Below, piece after piece: positions 1 to 8,359 of a stretch of DNA of 64,000 bases (position 1 is the first letter of the stretch; each line of letters starts with the position of its first letter). The position numbers and the translations under genes are program-made. Source of the DNA: Vampirovibrio chlorellavorus (GTDB lineage: Bacteria > Cyanobacteriota > Vampirovibrionia > Vampirovibrionales > Vampirovibrionaceae). The stretch covers positions 1-64,000 of the forward strand of contig CM007359.1 in assembly GCA_001858525.1 (NCBI GenBank). Reading direction: 5' to 3'. Under the pieces are notes generated by a model. It did not search any database and was not told the origin of the DNA. It worked only from the letters and a program-made list of their open reading frames with translations.

Positions 1-1755
1 ATGTCACCAAAGAAAACAGCTCCCCAGAGCCAGCCCCAAGTAGAAGTTCCACCACCACCCCCAAGACCTCGCCTTTCCAAAATTCGCATCAAAAATTTTC
101 GTTCAATAGGGACAACGGCTGTAGAAATCGAGCTTGACGATATTGTTGTATTAGTTGGACCTAATAACTCTGGAAAGAGTTCTATATTAAGGGCTTACCA
201 AGTGGTTATGGCTCATGGAAGTACCGAAGGGAAATTAACAATGGAGGATTTCCCAAATGGCTATGTCAATAAAAAAGATTATCCAGAAATAGAACTGGAA
301 ACTATTGTTTACGATAGAACAGCCCCAGGCGAACAGTGGGTTCTTTCTAATGAACAAGGTGAAATGTACGTAAAAGAAAAATGGGTATGGCTTGAGCCAA
401 AGAAAGACCCTGTTAAAGTTGGATGGGATACTACCACACAAAACTGGCATGCTTCAAGGGGTCCATGGGGAGCTCCAAATGTAGCAAAGGCATGTAGGCC
501 AAAGCCGCATAGAATTGAGGCTTTTGAAGGCCCTGAAAAACAGGCTGAAAATGTAATCAAACTTCTGAAAGAGGCCCTTGAACAAAAGGTAAAAGCGTTA
601 AAATCTGGGAACCCAAAATACCAAGAGTTACTTTCTTCTCTTGCTGAAATTCATCAAACCATTTTAAGTGAAACAAATACTGAAATTGACACTGTTGAGA
701 GACACATCACCGAAACAATTTCAAGCATTTTTCCAAATCACGTTGTAAAATTCGACGCGAATATTGATGGTGACTTAGACAACTGCTTATCATTTTTTAA
801 AACATCTCCCATTTTGAGGATGGGCATTGATAAAGACGGACACCACCTAAGCAGCATAGATAGACAAGGAAGTGGTGCGAGACGAACACTTTTATGGGCT
901 GCGTTAAGGTTGTTACAAGAAGGAAGAAATGATGATACAGTTATGCCGAACGTCCTCCTTCTTGATGAACCAGAGTTGTGCCTGCACCCTAACGCAGTAA
1001 GAGATGCCTGCAAGATTCTATACGATTTGCCTAAAACTAATAGCTGGCAGGTCATGGTTACAACCCACTCCCCAGTTTTTATTGACTTTTCCAGAGACAA
1101 CACCTCGATTGTCAGAGTAGAACGGAAAGATGGAGAATCAATCCAAGGGACAACTCTGTTTCGACCATTAAGGGCTAGGCTGGATGAGAATGATAAAACA
1201 CTTCTCAAGATTTTAAACCTCTGCGATCCTTATTTAGCGGAATTCTTTTTTGGGGGTAAAACAATCGTAGTTGAAGGCGATACCGAATATACAGCATTTA
1301 AATACATTGTTCATCACCATCCCGATGAATTCAAAGATATTCATATACTCAGAGCAAGGGGTAAGGCAACAATCGTCTCTCTATGTAAAATTTTAAATCA
1401 ATTCGGCTCAAGTTATTCTGTCCTGCATGATTCAGACACGCCGACCAATTCAGACGGCAGCAAAAATTCAGCCTGGACAATGAATGAAAATATTCTTCAA
1501 GAAACCAAGCTAAACTCCTCCGCCACTAATGTGCGCTTGGTGGCATCAAAAAAGAATTTTGAAAATACTTTTTTCAAAAAAGAAGTTGCCAAAGATAAGC
1601 CCTATAATGCAATTACACAATTATCAACAGACTCAACCTCTTTTAAGAACATTAAAAAGCTTTTAGAGGGTTTAATGGACCACTCTAAAGAGTTACCTTC
1701 TGAAGTATTGGAATGGACCTCACTGCAAACACTTGAAAGTTTCTTAAATAATTAA
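1..1755 (+). CDS. OLD-family ATP-dependent endonuclease (ATPase plus Toprim)
   Basis: A 584-residue protein with the two-part layout of OLD (overcoming lysogenization defect) nucleases, which couple an ABC/SMC-type ATPase to a metal-dependent Toprim nuclease and usually serve in phage defence. A proline-rich head (about 1-23) precedes the typical RIKNFRSIG entry. Walker A is GPNNSGKS at 53-60, a coiled-coil-like stretch lies near 175-240, Walker B is LLLDEPELCLHP with D322/E323, and an H-loop TTHSP sits near 356. The Toprim domain shows VVEGDTEY (E425) and HDSDTP (D477, D479). No UvrD-like helicase follows, so it is not a Gabija pair; it resembles stand-alone OLD proteins. A KTSC-domain gene follows after 19 bases, probably co-transcribed. 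The first ATG is base 1 of the window, so a longer start cannot be excluded. Confidence 0.9.
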   Translation: MSPKKTAPQSQPQVEVPPPPPRPRLSKIRIKNFRSIGTTAVEIELDDIVVLVGPNNSGKSSILRAYQVVMAHGSTEGKLTMEDFPNGYVNKKDYPEIELETIVYDRTAPGEQWVLSNEQGEMYVKEKWVWLEPKKDPVKVGWDTTTQNWHASRGPWGAPNVAKACRPKPHRIEAFEGPEKQAENVIKLLKEALEQKVKALKSGNPKYQELLSSLAEIHQTILSETNTEIDTVERHITETISSIFPNHVVKFDANIDGDLDNCLSFFKTSPILRMGIDKDGHHLSSIDRQGSGARRTLLWAALRLLQEGRNDDTVMPNVLLLDEPELCLHPNAVRDACKILYDLPKTNSWQVMVTTHSPVFIDFSRDNTSIVRVERKDGESIQGTTLFRPLRARLDENDKTLLKILNLCDPYLAEFFFGGKTIVVEGDTEYTAFKYIVHHHPDEFKDIHILRARGKATIVSLCKILNQFGSSYSVLHDSDTPTNSDGSKNSAWTMNENILQETKLNSSATNVRLVASKKNFENTFFKKEVAKDKPYNAITQLSTDSTSFKNIKKLLEGLMDHSKELPSEVLEWTSLQTLESFLNN

Positions 1756-1774
1756 GGAAAGGTAAAAGCCAGAA

Positions 1775-1987
1775 ATGAATTGGAACTTTACTCCTGAATC
1801 TTCTAATCTTGCAGGTTTTGGTTATGATGAAATCAATCTAACATTAATTGTAGAGTTTAAAAATGGAACAAGTTACCATTACTTTAGTGTTCCCATAGAT
1901 GTTTTCAATGCAATGTGTGTAGCCTCTTCAAAAGGTACTTTTTTAGCACAAAACGTTAAGGGTATATATAACTACCAAAAAGTGTAA
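1775..1987 (+). CDS. Small KTSC-domain protein
   Basis: A 70-residue protein that is essentially one KTSC domain. The family pattern is visible: SSNLAGFGYD at the start, a strand LTLIVEF, then NGTSYHYFSVPIDVF, and a closing ASSKGTF...NVKGIYNY. KTSC domains occur alone or attached to lysyl-tRNA synthetases and are thought to bind nucleic acid, but no biochemical role is settled. A good ribosome site (AAGGAAAGG) lies 12 bases before the ATG, and the OLD gene ends 19 bases upstream, so the two look like one operon. Its stop codon abuts the stop of the convergent DUF2130 gene with no base between. A role as accessory factor to the nuclease is inference. Confidence 0.8.
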   Translation: MNWNFTPESSNLAGFGYDEINLTLIVEFKNGTSYHYFSVPIDVFNAMCVASSKGTFLAQNVKGIYNYQKV

Positions 1988-3268
1988 TTAATTCTGTGCT
2001 TCATTTTTAATAGGTTCAAGCATTGGCAAACTCAGACCCTCAATCTCTTGTATAGCGCGACCTGCAATGCCTTGCAGGTCCCCATACATTCCAACAGTAG
2101 ATTCAATGACACCCTCGATCTGGGTCTGCCTTTTGGCCCACTGGCGAGTCATAGACTTCTTTTCTCTATCTAAATCAAGTTGCATATCAGTAAATTTTTC
2201 AACAATAGCTTCAATTCGATGCTTGAAGCGTGGCCCTGTCAGATAATCATAAACCAGTTCCATTTTTGTTTGCTGCCCCTCTTGAGATTTTCGAGCATTT
2301 GAAATCTCAATCAAGCTTTGTCTGAGAGCAATTGCTAGAGGCACAGTGTATTGCGGGGCTGCAATCCAAACCCCATCAATCTGGCCAAAAGTCTCTATTT
2401 CCTTGGGTAGTGAGTAAGAAATCAGGATAGAAATTTCAGCTTTAGCTGTTCGTTGGTCATCTCTAAGTTTAGAGAGCCAACCATCACTCCAATGTTTAGT
2501 TCTTTTCAACTCCCACAGGATGGAACCACATCCCTGGCCCATTGTACCATTTACGCGCTGAAGACAGTCGCCCCCAAACTCACCTTTTCCAACTGACTCG
2601 ATAGCATCAAAAGGGAACTTTGTTCTGAGCATTTCTTCCAAAATCAATTCCAACACTTCCCCTTGAAGTTGCTGAGAGCCCTGCTCTGCCTTCTGTTTCA
2701 ACTCTTCGATCTTACGCTGCATAGATGCCATTTGCTCTTCTTTTTCAGCAAGCTTAAGCTTCAACCCCTCTTCAGCTTCCCTCTTGGCCTTTTCACGGAC
2801 TTCATTGACAGAAGATTGGACACGTTTCTCAATCGTCAAATCAAGCTCTCGTTTTTCGTCGTCTAATTCTCTCTGTTTACGCAATAAATCCGCCTGAACT
2901 TTTTGAGCCTCTTCCAATTTGGCATTTTTTTTGTCTATCAGCTCTTGCAACTCAGTCACTATTTTATTCTTAGATTCCAGCTCTGATGCTGCGGCCAATT
3001 TCGCCTTTTGAGCCTCCTCAACTATAATAGACTGGCGCTCTAGTTTTACTTTTTCTGCTATTTGGTCATCAATGGCTTTTTGAGCCTCTAACAGAGCTTT
3101 TTGTTGCTCTTTTATTGAAGCTTCTCTTTGAGCAACTATCAATTCTTGTTGAGCAATTTTCTGCTCATATTCTTGTCGGGTGGCTTGTAAAAGCGGAGCC
3201 GCAAGCGACTCCGTAACCTTAACTTGGGTAGAACAATTAGGACACGTAATAAGCGGTTCAAAACTCAT
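1988..3268 (-). CDS. DUF2130 protein: coiled coil plus PD-(D/E)XK-like domain
   Basis: A 426-residue DUF2130-family protein. The N-terminus has one CPNC pair (residues 9-12), half of a possible zinc ribbon. Residues about 25-205 are a long charged, glutamine-rich coiled coil. The globular part begins near LQGEVLELILEEML and contains GGDCLQ followed by ILWELKRTK, so a D...ExK pair sits in the order expected of PD-(D/E)XK nucleases; a second coil follows to the C-terminus. The coiled coil plus nuclease layout recalls RmuC. DUF2130 function is not established, so nuclease activity is inferred from motif only. It is convergent with the OLD-KTSC pair and shares no regulatory region with it. Confidence 0.8.
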   Translation of the reverse strand: MSFEPLITCPNCSTQVKVTESLAAPLLQATRQEYEQKIAQQELIVAQREASIKEQQKALLEAQKAIDDQIAEKVKLERQSIIVEEAQKAKLAAASELESKNKIVTELQELIDKKNAKLEEAQKVQADLLRKQRELDDEKRELDLTIEKRVQSSVNEVREKAKREAEEGLKLKLAEKEEQMASMQRKIEELKQKAEQGSQQLQGEVLELILEEMLRTKFPFDAIESVGKGEFGGDCLQRVNGTMGQGCGSILWELKRTKHWSDGWLSKLRDDQRTAKAEISILISYSLPKEIETFGQIDGVWIAAPQYTVPLAIALRQSLIEISNARKSQEGQQTKMELVYDYLTGPRFKHRIEAIVEKFTDMQLDLDREKKSMTRQWAKRQTQIEGVIESTVGMYGDLQGIAGRAIQEIEGLSLPMLEPIKNEAQN

Positions 3269-3690: not shown

Positions 3691-4347
3691 CTATTCTGGT
3701 TTGTCGTTCCAGACAATGAGGAAACGGTCTAAATCATTGGCCATCGCTTCCAGAGGTTGACTCATTGCCGCCAAGAGGAAGAGAATTGTCTGGTAATCCT
3801 CCTGCAAGGTTGGCTTATTCCAGATCGCTTCATGGTGTGCAATGCGATTACGGAGCGTTCTAACTCGACTGAGAGCATCGTAAGCCTTTTTGGGTGATAT
3901 TTTTGGACTCTCTGGAAATACCATTCGCATGGGTTTTTCTTTACTGTGCCAGATGGTGGGGTGGTAATGGGACTTGAACAGGTTCGTCCAGAAGCCAAAA
4001 TTAAGTTCTGCAACTAGTTTTGGGTGGCTCCACCCTCCATTGTCCCGAATCAGCTTTTGCTTTGCTTTGAAAATGGCGTCTTGCTCTGGGTTTGGGAATC
4101 CCTTTGACTGCATCCAGGACGTCTTTATCCAGTAATGGCAGCTTTCCTGAAGCCAATCAGAGCCATGGAGGTTGGATAATGTGTTATCTATCCGGTTTCT
4201 CAGCCCTATTTCCAGCAGGGAGAGTGATGGATATAGAGCCTCCGAGAGTGCGAGATTCCATTTGTACCGGGCAATAACAAGCGATTCCTCCGCTTGTCCC
4301 CATCCGTATGCATGGAGTCTTGGTTCAGATAATAAATCGGAGATCAT
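3691..4347 (-). CDS. Abi_2/AbiF-like HEPN protein
   Basis: An Abi-like protein (218 residues from the ATG chosen here; a TTG at 4359 would add four). The C-terminal half carries the HEPN signature LRNRIAHHE, with the R-x4-H pair expected of the RNase active site; a second related LRNRI lies near residue 50. The N-terminal SLLEIGLRN region is typical of Abi_2. Family members are abortive-infection or toxin-like RNases that cut RNA on phage attack. No protein antitoxin neighbour is present, but the upstream DNA has a strong divergent promoter and a structured-looking segment. I recall reports that some AbiF-type HEPN proteins are held in check by an adjacent small RNA; whether that applies here is inference. 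Confidence 0.8.
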   Translation of the reverse strand: MISDLLSEPRLHAYGWGQAEESLVIARYKWNLALSEALYPSLSLLEIGLRNRIDNTLSNLHGSDWLQESCHYWIKTSWMQSKGFPNPEQDAIFKAKQKLIRDNGGWSHPKLVAELNFGFWTNLFKSHYHPTIWHSKEKPMRMVFPESPKISPKKAYDALSRVRTLRNRIAHHEAIWNKPTLQEDYQTILFLLAAMSQPLEAMANDLDRFLIVWNDKPE

Positions 4348-4348
4348 C

Positions 4349-4376
4349 TTGATTCTCAAACAAAAACTGTTATAAT
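4349..4376 (+). promoter_or_regulatory. Sigma70-type promoter, divergent from the Abi_2 gene
   Basis: TTGATT (4349-4354), a 16-base spacer and a perfect TATAAT (4371-4376) point rightward, away from the Abi_2 gene. No protein gene lies immediately downstream on this strand, so it would transcribe the structured segment at 4383-4511. Confidence 0.6.
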
Positions 4377-4382
4377 TTTAAT

Positions 4383-4511
4383 GTATGCCCCGGTTTTCTT
4401 CCTAGCGCTTCCGCGTTTTACAGATGCCGGGGATATGCCTTTTTAAGGCTTATAGACCCTGGATGTAACCTCTCCCAGACTTACCAGTTTGGTGATGACG
4501 CCGGGGTTTTT
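4383..4511 (+). ncRNA. Candidate structured RNA next to the Abi_2 gene
   Basis: A non-coding segment directly upstream of the HEPN gene and directly after a strong divergent promoter. CCCCGG near 4387 can pair with CCGGGG near 4427 or with the final CCGGGGTTTTT near 4501, giving two competing folds. Between them lies a hairpin, AUA-GCCUU / AAGGC-UUAU (about 4432-4454), and a small ACCA/UGGU hairpin. Read on the minus strand, CGC-GGAA-GCG forms a GNRA-type tetraloop, so the functional RNA could instead be the Abi_2 leader. Strand and ends are therefore uncertain; no covariance evidence is available here. Confidence 0.3.
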
Positions 4512-4569
4512 GCTTGTATATGAGATTATTTTACTGCTGTTGGGCATGGATGGCGAGACAAAACGAAAA

Positions 4570-4590
4570 CCCCGGCGAGGATGGCCGGGG
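4570..4590 (-). terminator. Terminator of the truncated primase copy
   Basis: CCCCGGC (4570-4576) pairs with GCCGGGG (4584-4590). On the minus strand the hairpin is followed by TTTTCG. It is the counterpart of the terminator at 6076-6093 behind the intact gene, so it was duplicated along with the gene tail. Confidence 0.6.
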
Positions 4591-4616
4591 CGGTTGAGTA
4601 GTGTTGGAGTTTTCCC

Positions 4617-5040
4617 GGGTAAGGCTTCGCCCTTCCGCTTGCACCCGAAGCTTCTCAGGGGCGAGGGTCAGACTGACCTTGATATGCCTCTCTAACTCCC
4701 GTTGATGCTCTTGCATGACCTGTTTTGGGGATGTGACCTGGTTCATGCCTAATTGGAGCCGTGCTTGGGTGTTTCGGGTCTCTTGGGCTTTTCAGAAGTC
4801 GTTCCAGTCGCTTCTGGAAGTATCTTTGTCAAATTCCGGAATTATAGGGTAAACCCACCTACCTTTTGAGCGGCTTCCTGGGCTTTCAAACGGCCCACGT
4901 TCTTCTCAATGGGTTGGGTGTGATCGTTATCGCCCGCAATCACCAGAACCTTTTCCGGAAATTGTTTCCGGTAAATTTCCGCCACTGTTGGCAGGTTTCC
5001 GGAATTAAAGTTCACAATAACCGGAAAGCCGGTCAGTTAG
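4617..5040 (-). pseudogene. Truncated second copy of the ArdC/primase gene 3' end
   Basis: This stretch is clearly homologous to the last ~420 bases of the intact gene at 6116-8359. The block near 4866-5030 is almost base-for-base the same as about 6366-6530, and encodes the end of the Toprim region. The last residues remain readable near 4617-4746 (VNQ...QEHQ...APEK...GRSLTR), but the original stop codon is lost and the middle is eroded by small indels. Similarity stops sharply near 5040, where unrelated AT-rich DNA begins. It has no start and is taken as a dead fragment of a partial duplication or of a second related element. Confidence 0.8.
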
Positions 5041-5325: not shown

Positions 5326-5745
5326 TTATAGTTCCCAAGGGTTTATTAGTAAAGCCCCGGTGGATTGAAAATCATTTACATTGCGGGTGATTAGATGTAG
5401 CCCGTGATGCATTGCTGTGGCGGCAATCAGGCCATCAATGGCGGGCAGTCCTATGCCTTGTTGATGGGCCTTGGCCAACAATTCTCCCCACAGCCTTGCC
5501 ACATTTGTTGAAACAGGCAATATACGACCTGCATAATCTGATTCTAGCTCATTCAACCAGTGCTCAAAGGCCTGTTTTCGTTTCCCATCTTCCAGACGTT
5601 TTACGCCTTTGGTAATTTCACCCACCGTAATGGCGCTAATGAAAAAATGAAGGCTGTTCAGGCTTTCCAGGTAGGCTAAAACCTCTGGATTGGGTTTCGG
5701 TTGTCGATATTCTGAGAGAACACAGGTGTCCAGGAGGTACTTCAA
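5326..5745 (-). CDS. vapC: VapC-like PIN-domain ribonuclease toxin
   Basis: A 139-residue PIN-domain protein. The acidic metal-binding residues of VapC are visible: LLDTCVLSE at the N-terminus (D6), the ISAITVGEI helix (E near 43), AIDGLIAATA (D near 101) and TRNVNDF (D near 120). VapC toxins cut tRNA or rRNA and are neutralised by the partner encoded just upstream. The start is a TTG that overlaps the TGA stop of the antitoxin gene, so the two are translationally coupled. Length is normal and the frame is intact. It lies between a solitary IS end and the conjugation operon and may stabilise that element. Confidence 0.88.
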   Translation of the reverse strand: MKYLLDTCVLSEYRQPKPNPEVLAYLESLNSLHFFISAITVGEITKGVKRLEDGKRKQAFEHWLNELESDYAGRILPVSTNVARLWGELLAKAHQQGIGLPAIDGLIAATAMHHGLHLITRNVNDFQSTGALLINPWEL

Positions 5746-5999
5746 AACTCAAACTCCCGTGCTTGGGAGCGATCTCGCTCTAAATCCAACCCTTCAAAAA
5801 CCGGGCTGGATTTCAAAAAATCAATAAAGCTCTTTTTTTTGCCAGATAAGCGTTCAAACTCTTCCAGGGAGAGAACAACGACTTCATCCCTGTTCCGCTT
5901 GATCCGTTGTGGCCCTATGGTCATAGCCCGATTTACCACTTCACTCAAGCGGTTCTTGGCGTCGTATAATCGCCATTCGTTTTCGGCCATGTCTGCCAT
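5742..5999 (-). CDS. vapB: Phd/YefM-type antitoxin (VapB partner)
   Basis: An 85-residue antitoxin. The Phd/YefM pattern is clear: WRLYDAKNRLSEVVNRA, then GPQRIKRNRDEVVVLSLEEFERL, followed by a flexible acidic tail (SSPVFEGLDLERD) that should wrap the toxin. GAGG seven bases before the ATG at 5999 supports this start; an internal ATG nine bases on is possible. It probably represses its own operon through the site just upstream. Confidence 0.88.
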   Translation of the reverse strand: MADMAENEWRLYDAKNRLSEVVNRAMTIGPQRIKRNRDEVVVLSLEEFERLSGKKKSFIDFLKSSPVFEGLDLERDRSQAREFEF

Positions 6000-6075: not shown

Positions 6076-6093
6076 CCCCGGCGGTGGCCGGGG
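6076..6093 (-). terminator. Terminator at the end of the conjugation operon
   Basis: CCCCGGC (6076-6082) and GCCGGGG (6087-6093) form a 7-bp GC stem with a 4-base loop. On the minus strand it is followed by TTTTCTTTT. It stands 23 bases after the stop of the primase gene, the last gene of the trb operon. Confidence 0.75.
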
Positions 6094-6115
6094 CAGGTTG
6101 GGTTTCGTTGGACTA

Positions 6116-8359
6116 TTATCGAGTCAGGCTTCGTCCACCGGTCTGTACCAGTGTTTTTTCAGGTGCCTTGGCCATACTGACTCTTTTTTCTTTCTCTAAC
6201 GATGGTTGGTGTTCTTGACTGGCCTGTTTTTGGGCCTTGGCCTGGTTCACGCCGAGTTGGAGCCTTGCCTGGGTGGCTTGGGTCCCTTGGGCTTTCCGGA
6301 AGTCGTTCCAGTCGCTTCCGGAAGTACCTTTGTCAAATTCCGGAAGCATGGCAAACCCGCCTACCCTTTGAGCGGCTTCCTGGGCTTTCAAACGGCCCAC
6401 GTTCTTCTCAATGGGTTTGGTGTGATCGTTATCGCCCGCAATGACCAGAATCTTTTCCGGAAATTTCTTCCGGTAAATTTCCGCCACTGTTGGCAGGTTT
6501 CCGGAATTAAAGGCCACAATAACCGGCAAGCCGGTCAACTCGTGCAGGGTAGCTGCAGTGGCATAACCTTCGGCGATCAGGATTGTCTCGGATGCAGTCA
6601 AATTACCAATGGGGAAATGTCCACCCTCGAGTTTTCCGCCACGGGGGAAGCTTTTTCGTCCGGAGGCGTCAATGGTTTGTGCCGCCCAAAAGCGACCGTT
6701 TTCATCCAACACTGGCACCAGGAGTTCCCCGGGTTTACTCCATAGTTGGGGCGGCTCATCCAACTTCCCGCCAGTCAGCGCTAAGGCCCCCAATGCATTG
6801 ACTCTTAAGCCATGGGCTTGTACCCCTTTGGCACTGAGGTAAGGATGAGAATGAGCGGGGGCTGCTGCTTGCCAATGGGCTTCCACCAGTCCTGCAGTTT
6901 CGATGGCTAAGGCTTCCCGCTCTTTGGCTCTCAGAACACGTTTTTGAGCGGCTTCCACTTCAAGGCCTTCCCGATCCTTGTCACTCAGGATGGGTGTCCT
7001 TTGAGAGGATTTCCAGGTGGTTTCCAGTCCGGTTTTATGATTCTGGATGTAGCCAGCTGGGTGGCCATCAGTAAAACCCACATAGGCTCCGCTGCGCTCA
7101 CCGCTAGGGTCTCCTTCCACTGGGACCCGGTGAAGTCCCCCGTCCATAATCGGTATTCCAGGCAACAGCAGCCCGGCCTCCTGCAGGGCTTGAGCAAACT
7201 CAGTGGCAGGATCCAGCTGAGGTTGAATTACGCTCTCCTGTTTTCCCCATCGGGTTATCAATTCTTCGGTATCCCCGTGGGGCCCAATATACCAGGATTT
7301 TACTTCCCGATCCCAGATGGCTCCTTTTGCTTTGGCCTGGTTCTTCTCGGCATAAGGAACATTGAGATACAGGCGTTCAGTCGGCTGATTTAGCATGACA
7401 GGCTCCTTGGGTTCGATGGCCAATACCGGGGCTTGAATTGGTGAGATTGAATGTTCCTGACTCTGCTCTTGTTGTATTTCTCGGCCCCTCAGATATTGAA
7501 CAATGCGTTCTGCGTCAGTTGATGCCCGGAAGATTTCACGGGGGTCTTCTTGCAGAGCTTGAATCCAGGAGCTAATGTAGGCCACATGTTGGCCAGGATC
7601 GTGCCCGATGCCGAGTTGTTCACCCAGCATTAAAGAGGCGATTTCGGCGCGTAGTTCTTCTTTGGCATAGCCCATAGAGCCAAATGGATGGCGAAGATCT
7701 CGGTTAAGTCTGCTTTCATGACCGCTCCAATGACCGAGCTCATGCAAAGCAGTGGCGTAATACCGGTCAGCCGTTGGAAACTGCTCCCGTAGTGGGAGGG
7801 TGATGCTGTCAGTTGAGGGACGATAAAAGGCCCGATCTCCAGCTGCATGCTGAATGATTGCCCCAGTCTCTTTTAAAATAGATTCGGCTTCCGTATGGCG
7901 TTCCCATTCCGTGAGAGCCGTTTTGAGTTCCATTGGCGGCAAACCGCTAATTTGATCGGCATTAAAGACCACAGCTGAACGGACTTTGGGCCGTTGCAGG
8001 CGAACAGTGACTTTAATCGGTTTACCCTTCTCATCCAAAACAGGTTGACCATTTTCATCCAGTTTCAGAATCTCGTCTTGCCATTTCCAGAATTGAATGA
8101 CAGTTCCTTTTTCCCCCTTGTTGACCTGTGTATCCAGACTGGTGGCTTGTTTATAGGTCATCCAGCGGGTATCCCCATAGCCTCTGGCTTCAGCCACAGA
8201 CAAAAGCCAAACGGCGTTCATGCCTTTGTAGGGATTGCCACTGACTGCATTAAAGGGTAAATACCGCTGACCTGCCTGCCAAGGCTTGAGCCAGGGGGCG
8301 GTGCCCTGTTCTAATTGGCGAATAATGGATTCTGAAACAGTTTTAGCGTAGTCACTCAT
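6116..8359 (-). CDS. ArdC / zincin / Toprim primase fusion (TraC-like)
   Basis: A 747-residue multidomain plasmid protein. Residues about 1-135 match the ArdC N-terminal ssDNA-binding domain (APWLKPWQ, NPYKGMNAVWL, KGEKGTVIQFWKW). Residues about 150-300 form a zincin-like domain with HELGH at 206-210. A short DUF5710-like domain (YLNVPYAEKNQAKAKGAIWD) lies near 328-375. The C-terminal half has a TraC-type Toprim primase: HPYLSAKGV near 495, ILIAEGYATAATL (conserved E) and IAGDNDHT (D-x-D). Such proteins are carried into recipients, where they could protect and prime incoming single-stranded DNA. It is the last gene of the conjugation operon, overlapping the small ORF upstream by 4 bases. A broken copy of its 3' end lies at 4617-5040. 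Confidence 0.88.
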   Translation of the reverse strand: MSDYAKTVSESIIRQLEQGTAPWLKPWQAGQRYLPFNAVSGNPYKGMNAVWLLSVAEARGYGDTRWMTYKQATSLDTQVNKGEKGTVIQFWKWQDEILKLDENGQPVLDEKGKPIKVTVRLQRPKVRSAVVFNADQISGLPPMELKTALTEWERHTEAESILKETGAIIQHAAGDRAFYRPSTDSITLPLREQFPTADRYYATALHELGHWSGHESRLNRDLRHPFGSMGYAKEELRAEIASLMLGEQLGIGHDPGQHVAYISSWIQALQEDPREIFRASTDAERIVQYLRGREIQQEQSQEHSISPIQAPVLAIEPKEPVMLNQPTERLYLNVPYAEKNQAKAKGAIWDREVKSWYIGPHGDTEELITRWGKQESVIQPQLDPATEFAQALQEAGLLLPGIPIMDGGLHRVPVEGDPSGERSGAYVGFTDGHPAGYIQNHKTGLETTWKSSQRTPILSDKDREGLEVEAAQKRVLRAKEREALAIETAGLVEAHWQAAAPAHSHPYLSAKGVQAHGLRVNALGALALTGGKLDEPPQLWSKPGELLVPVLDENGRFWAAQTIDASGRKSFPRGGKLEGGHFPIGNLTASETILIAEGYATAATLHELTGLPVIVAFNSGNLPTVAEIYRKKFPEKILVIAGDNDHTKPIEKNVGRLKAQEAAQRVGGFAMLPEFDKGTSGSDWNDFRKAQGTQATQARLQLGVNQAKAQKQASQEHQPSLEKEKRVSMAKAPEKTLVQTGGRSLTR

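Follow-up and report, generated by a model that had tools for sequence, protein, structure and literature searches.

A divergently oriented structured RNA as the probable partner of a predicted Abi_2/HEPN toxin in Vampirovibrio chlorellavorus

The window analysed here, a stretch of 64,000 nucleotides of Vampirovibrio chlorellavorus (contig CM007359.1), contains a short open reading frame at 3691-4359 on the minus strand which encodes an Abi_2/HEPN protein (Pfam PF07751, E 3.4e-8, 34.4 bits against a curated cut-off of 25.6). The TTG start of the listed frame is probably wrong, as a paralogue with 64% protein identity on another contig of the same genome (G000:C2:11062-11718, locus L002 among the loci we extracted) shares an ATG followed by [DN]LLS, placing the probable start at ATG 4347 and giving a gene at 3691-4347 (-) for a protein of 218 aa. 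The best PADLOC match was PD-T4-5 (E 7e-19, over profile positions 8-214 of 309), with AbiD at E 1.5e-7. The HEPN catalytic motif RxxxxH lies at 3835-3852 (-) as RNRIAH, residues 166-171, and R166, N167, R168 and H171 were invariant in 64 aligned homologues. The gene lies on a conjugative element (T4SS coupling protein, transglycosylase and a signal peptidase-like protein) and is flanked at 1-3268 by an OLD-like AAA/TOPRIM protein, a KTSC protein and a DUF2130 protein, perhaps forming a small defence cluster. A PIN-domain toxin with a Phd/YefM-type antitoxin lies at 5326-5999, between two stretches (4587-5035 and 6091-6537; 74% over 255 nt and 94% over 188 nt) that repeat the 3' end of the ArdC/primase-like gene 6116-8359. 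The HEPN-RNA unit lies just beyond the outer of these copies, suggesting insertion by duplication. A search for DNA similarity to plasmids gave none.

Reading away from the HEPN gene is a near-consensus promoter, TTGATT-16-TATAAT, at 4349-4376 (+), whose -35 box abuts the toxin start codon. It matches 10 of 12 consensus positions with a TG and was the best of 8 sites in 2,001 bases, where shuffled sequences gave a mean of 2.9. The 129-nt segment that follows at 4383-4511 (+) folds strongly, with a minimum free energy of -51.8 kcal/mol against -34.3 for shuffles (z -4.68, 0 of 200 as low), while the opposite strand of 4360-4530 reached a z of only -1.98. A 21-aa ATG frame (4381-4446, +) and the ends of two others (34 aa on the minus strand and a 68-aa TTG frame on the plus strand) touch the segment, however the 21-aa frame lacks its ATG in the paralogue and no conserved peptide is seen, and a coding reading was therefore dropped. 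The earlier note, which described this promoter and a segment without an ORF containing competing GC helices and two hairpins, was thus confirmed in its observation, although the competing helices are better read as the repeated CCCCGG/CCGGGG stems of two copies of one RNA element (4382-4441 and 4452-4511), the 3' copy being also the terminator.

The paralogue retains the promoter, with TATAAT at the same distance from the RNA, and the first hairpin only, with 52 of 61 aligned bases identical against 408 of 657 in the gene. The rest of the segment is not conserved there and no type B match (see below) was found at E <= 1. Single-protein scans of genome and viral contigs gave no further relatives, however alignment-based scans did. 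Several distant homologues of the same class (31-37% identity; loci L007, L009-L013, L015 and L016) showed a promoter and a GC-rich hairpin reading away from the gene, L010-L013 having a minimal ~20-nt GCAA-loop hairpin (such as CCCCCGGCGCAAGCUGGGGG) behind the divergent promoter and the hairpin of L016 being identified by eye only. L014, L017 and L018 showed no RNA that we accept. In Gastranaerophilales no RNA was seen upstream, and it lies instead downstream of the gene, as in L005, L006 and L008. Plasmid homologues of Pantoea, Aeromonas, Pseudomonas syringae, rhizobia, sphingomonads and Xanthomonas also show the hairpin, and those of Pantoea, Aeromonas and P. syringae share the inner motif CUCUCC...GGUGAUGA with window bases 4469-4498. 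No DNA relative of the Pantoea gene plus RNA was found in E. coli genomes.

From the flanks of these plasmid, class and viral loci three groups of RNAs were aligned, type B (35 sequences), type A (21) and type C (16), and covariance models (R1 for type B, R2, and R3 for type C) were used for all counts, as a simple hairpin finder picked the intended hairpin in many loci but other hairpins or none in the rest. In type B 94.2% of cells were paired and 63 cells had both sides changed (shuffled mean 22.4), with a double change in 9 of 15 pairs and a covariation score of 0.406 against 0.188 for shuffles (0 of 500) and at most 0.123 when the structure was slid along the alignment. Type C gave 93.1%, 44 cells, 10 of 14 pairs and 0.570 against 0.269, and type A 90.9%, 39 cells and 0.496 against 0.247. 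Covariation was above shuffles and slid controls in all three types. Weaker measures were less clear, with the number of pairs showing a double change reached by 93 of 500 shuffles in type A and 7 of 500 in type C, and the number of further pair types by 45, 322 and 391 of 500 in B, A and C. The structures were drawn from these same alignments, which favours them in the slid control.

In order to place the window RNA within this family, models built without it were run against the window. R1 has its best match in the 64 kb at 4452-4511 (+), with 38.3 bits and E 9.2e-10, the next, at 15.7 bits, being a plain terminator. This type B copy consists of P1 CCCUGG/CCGGGG, an inner CCUCUCC (from 4469) and GGUGAUGA (4491-4498) around P2, and a U-run terminator. 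R3 matches the first copy at 4382-4441 (+), a type C-like hairpin of the form GUAUGCCCCGG...CUUCCUAG-P2-...CCGGGGAUAU, with 22.8 bits and E 0.02, and the paralogue at the expected place with 17.7 bits and E 0.42; both of these matches are weak. A small linker hairpin GCCUUUUUAAGGC at 4437-4449 (+) lies between the copies and is not kept in the paralogue. The window RNA is therefore best read as two tandem copies, the first less surely. Most relatives have a single match, however an actinomycete locus (L105, 1727-1932) carries three tandem matches to the type A RNA, like type III antitoxin repeats.

Among the 80 best homologues kept from a genome collection, 73 have a match to R1, R2 or R3 beside the gene at E <= 0.01 (34 type B, 19 type A and 20 type C). 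Of these, 56 were model seeds and match by construction while 17 were not, some of them near-copies of seeds. Of the seven without, L044, L050 and L069 are cut by a contig end on the likely side, L081 has another hairpin identified by eye, and L072, L088 and L104 show none that we accept, although L104 has an R2 match at E 0.07. Types A and B are divergent and upstream, with the exception of L094, while type C is convergent and overlaps or abuts the end of the gene in most. Other matches at this threshold in these 322,658 bases are extra copies (L074 beside a second gene, L068 near a contig end downstream of the gene and two further copies in L105) or the same places hit by a second model. Among 40 homologues from viral contigs, many of them more distant and with 15 near-copies of the 55 left out, only 15 have a match at E <= 0.01, 4 of which are R3 seeds. 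In 250 genomes of one order 12 matches to the protein profile were found, of which 7 score 165 bits or more; 5 of these 7 have an R1 or R2 match (one, L233, is a seed and one, L231, is convergent) and 2 (L232 and L234) a different hairpin by eye, while the 5 weaker ones have no accepted match. L232, L234 and L024 appear to share a fourth form (type D, by eye only) with a GCAAG hairpin loop followed by UCCC or CUCCC upstream of the gene. A search of 382 genomes of the window's class gave 31 gene copies (E <= 2.2e-28, one weaker match, G365:C8, left out) of a family, f6, whose contigs fit Gastranaerophilales records, and 29 of the 31 have an R3 match within about 200 bases of the 3' end on the opposite strand, at least 8 of these being R3 seeds or their genomes' own copies. 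The two others are in genomes G197 (contig end) and G343.

Matches away from a recognised gene were also observed. R1 over 32 genomes gave 35 matches, 32 of them seeds, with one of the other three beside a second gene, one near a contig end downstream of the seed's gene and one an orphan in the gap between frames that we read as hsdM-like and hsdR-like. R1 over 250 genomes of one order gave 4 matches, the seed, two orphans (57.9 and 36.2 bits, the first beside an AbiTii gene) and a plain terminator. R3 over 382 genomes gave 46 matches in 39 genomes, of which by coordinates 30 lie beside a gene of the family and 16 do not; of the 30 loci extracted 22 hold the gene and 8 do not, 2 of the 8 at contig ends. 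These counts are lower bounds, as the searches scored only part of the initial candidates (150, 22 and 15 per genome, respectively). Orphan copies without a recognised HEPN gene (L223 1501-1558, L224 1501-1559, L229 1823-1879, and L248, L250, L263, L269, L271 and L272, several of them in class relatives) are thus fairly common, and while they fit solitary antitoxins they also fit other roles and are the main result against a strict pair.

Host-type promoters precede the RNA. In 17 RNAs of Bacteroidota type the box TAnnTT[TA]G lies within the 30 bases upstream in 16, against 2.6% at random places in the same loci. In 49 other RNAs (window and paralogue included, near-copies and several plasmid loci left out) a TATAAT match of 5 of 6 or better stands 1-12 bases before the model start in 30 (5.8% at random), and of 4 or better in 41 (21%). 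A host-specific promoter box at a fixed place is strong evidence for a transcribed RNA, but no transcript was seen. The type of RNA also follows the protein, as on an IQ-TREE tree of 87 proteins the RNA-type labels need 12 changes against 43.6 for shuffled labels (0 of 200 as low), although labels were set from the models or by eye (the window as B although its first copy is C-like) and near-copies cluster by themselves. Hosts of types A and B together belong to Bacteroidota, Pseudomonadota, Verrucomicrobiota, Spirochaetota, Planctomycetota, Chlorobiota, Thermodesulfobacteriota, Myxococcota, Actinomycetota and Cyanobacteriota. A Lokiarchaeota bin (L058) carries a Bacteroidota-type HEPN gene, RNA and promoter and is probably a mis-binned contig.

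An AlphaFold2 model of the protein built on 64 homologues (pLDDT 92.6, pTM 0.88) was compared with the PDB using Foldseek, which gave one match at E <= 0.001, the PbAbiF dimer bound to ncRNA (8vz6_A, E 7.8e-4). Alignment with VIA-align gave Z 13.1 and 2.8 A over 195 residues at 19% identity, with the next match at Z 5.3. In contrast, a profile search of PDB sequences gave almost only designed ankyrin-type proteins, which we take as chance. The predicted AbiF fold has one clear counterpart among solved structures, although the sequence is barely alignable to AbiF of phiC2 and the protein is shorter (218 aa against 287).

The RNA itself was not matched by any Rfam family. No Rfam family matches the window at gathering thresholds, and RF03085, the abiF RNA, was not found in 4300-4800 at E up to 10 nor in 20 and 14 related loci at gathering, where only tRNA and suhB were found elsewhere; phiC2, as a positive control, matches with 37.6 bits. 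Weak matches to PrrF, snoR116 and PsrR1 lie far below their cut-offs. RF03085 has the consensus CCCGCCAAGC..GCUCAAAUCGGCGGG and in phiC2 lies on the same strand as AbiF, whereas the RNA described here is on the opposite strand with its own promoter-like sequence and shares only the plan of a GC-rich outer stem, an uneven inner loop and an inner stem. RCd22 of C. difficile carries two motif copies in one RNA, as probably does the window. PD-T4-5, described as plasmid-borne, TA-like and a distant relative of AbiF/D (PMC9519451), has a 309-aa profile with a C-terminal part absent here, and an E. coli plasmid gene (L243) matches that profile at E 4.6e-134. PD-T4-5-like enterobacterial plasmid genes (L242 and L245) have upstream a divergent promoter-like stretch followed by a shared element ATCAAGGCGGAGTCGCCTC and a terminator, possibly another RNA family of the same kind. 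In type III toxin-antitoxin systems such as ToxIN a ribonuclease, which appears to be of a different fold, seems to be held by a small structured and partly tandem RNA, as is inferred here, though less surely for the tandem copies, however the RNA repeats there seem to precede the toxin in one operon while the present RNA is a separate divergent unit. With 218 aa and one RxxxxH motif the protein also does not have the two HEPN domains of a Cas13 effector. We found no earlier report in an open-access literature library.

Taken together these data are best explained, with good though not complete confidence, by a two-part toxin-antidote unit in which a likely dimeric ribonuclease toxin of the AbiD/F fold is neutralised by a small RNA with its own strong promoter sequence and intrinsic terminator, RNA binding and toxicity being inferred. 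By this reading the RNA is abundant, folds, and binds the HEPN dimer as a ribonucleoprotein, one hairpin per monomer, with the inner-loop nucleotides (CCUCUCC/GGUGAUGA) blocking the RNase groove. AbiF of C. difficile is toxic and is neutralised through direct binding of RCd22, in cis and in trans (PMC12373285), and each PbAbiF monomer binds one ncRNA whose bulge nucleotides inhibit the RNase (PMC12737573). The toxin may trim the tandem precursor. When phage infection, host take-over or loss of the element stops RNA synthesis the RNA would decay and free HEPN dimers would cut cellular RNA, leading to arrest or death of the cell (abortive defence and/or retention of the conjugative element). The suggestion of the earlier note that the locus could belong to the AbiF RNA-antitoxin type is in this sense well supported, and the covariance analysis that it asked for was positive, with two corrections, namely that the RNA does not match RF03085 and that it is not a co-directional leader.

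Other roles for the RNA appear unlikely but were considered. As AbiD/F is the proposed ancestor of Cas13, and RNA-guided ability before Cas13 has been suggested (PMC12165695), the RNA could be a crRNA-like guide or cofactor that directs or activates the RNase on a target, and the two copies in the window and three in L105 might be seen in this light. However, in the aligned type B loci the unpaired parts are short and conserved, the hairpin is followed by a U-run and no variable spacer-like segment is seen, and the ncRNA of AbiF itself is described as an inhibitor (PMC12737573). Since AbiF is also described as processing its cognate ncRNA (PMC12737573), and orphan RNA copies exist, the RNA may instead be a natural substrate or sensor of the RNase, although a dedicated RNA gene beside 73 of 80 relatives, the promoter boxes, the tree-wise pairing and the RCd22 precedent speak for an antidote.

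Type I-like antisense control of the toxin mRNA is similarly doubtful. In Gastranaerophilales the RNA abuts or overlaps the end of the gene on the other strand, and in the window a weak toxin promoter candidate at 4556-4528 (-) would give a 5' UTR antisense to the RNA, however the window RNA does not overlap the coding region, and antisense pairing does not explain covarying stems with fixed inner loops over many phyla, a related RNA at either end of the gene or tandem copies. The least likely alternative is that the unit is only a terminator or insulator with its promoter, or acts on the toxin promoter by transcriptional interference. P1 plus the U-run is indeed an intrinsic terminator, and part of the conservation is what any terminator would keep, with only the inner loop and P2 speaking for more. 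These inner parts are nevertheless conserved and covary without need for termination, in one clade the unit sits at the 3' end of the gene with its own promoter, and RNA type follows the protein tree.

A broader reading, which remains tentative and on balance somewhat less likely than not, is that the Abi_2/HEPN toxins as a whole are a two-gene kind in which each branch has its own independently transcribed, co-evolving antidote RNA. The co-directional abiF RNA would then be one variant, with divergent and convergent RNA genes (types A-D, plus others beside PD-T4-5-like plasmid genes) being the rule and orphan copies serving as free-standing antitoxins, and this would be the RNA-protein ground state from which Cas13 and its crRNA arose.

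If the toxin-antidote interpretation is true, a widespread group of HEPN defence genes, now annotated as single-gene Abi family proteins or hypothetical proteins, is really a set of two-component systems with an RNA antidote that Rfam does not hold. This would explain how cells tolerate these genes, and would also give models to annotate many loci and many natural protein-RNA pairs for testing how a non-guided inhibitory RNA could become a guide RNA on the way to Cas13.
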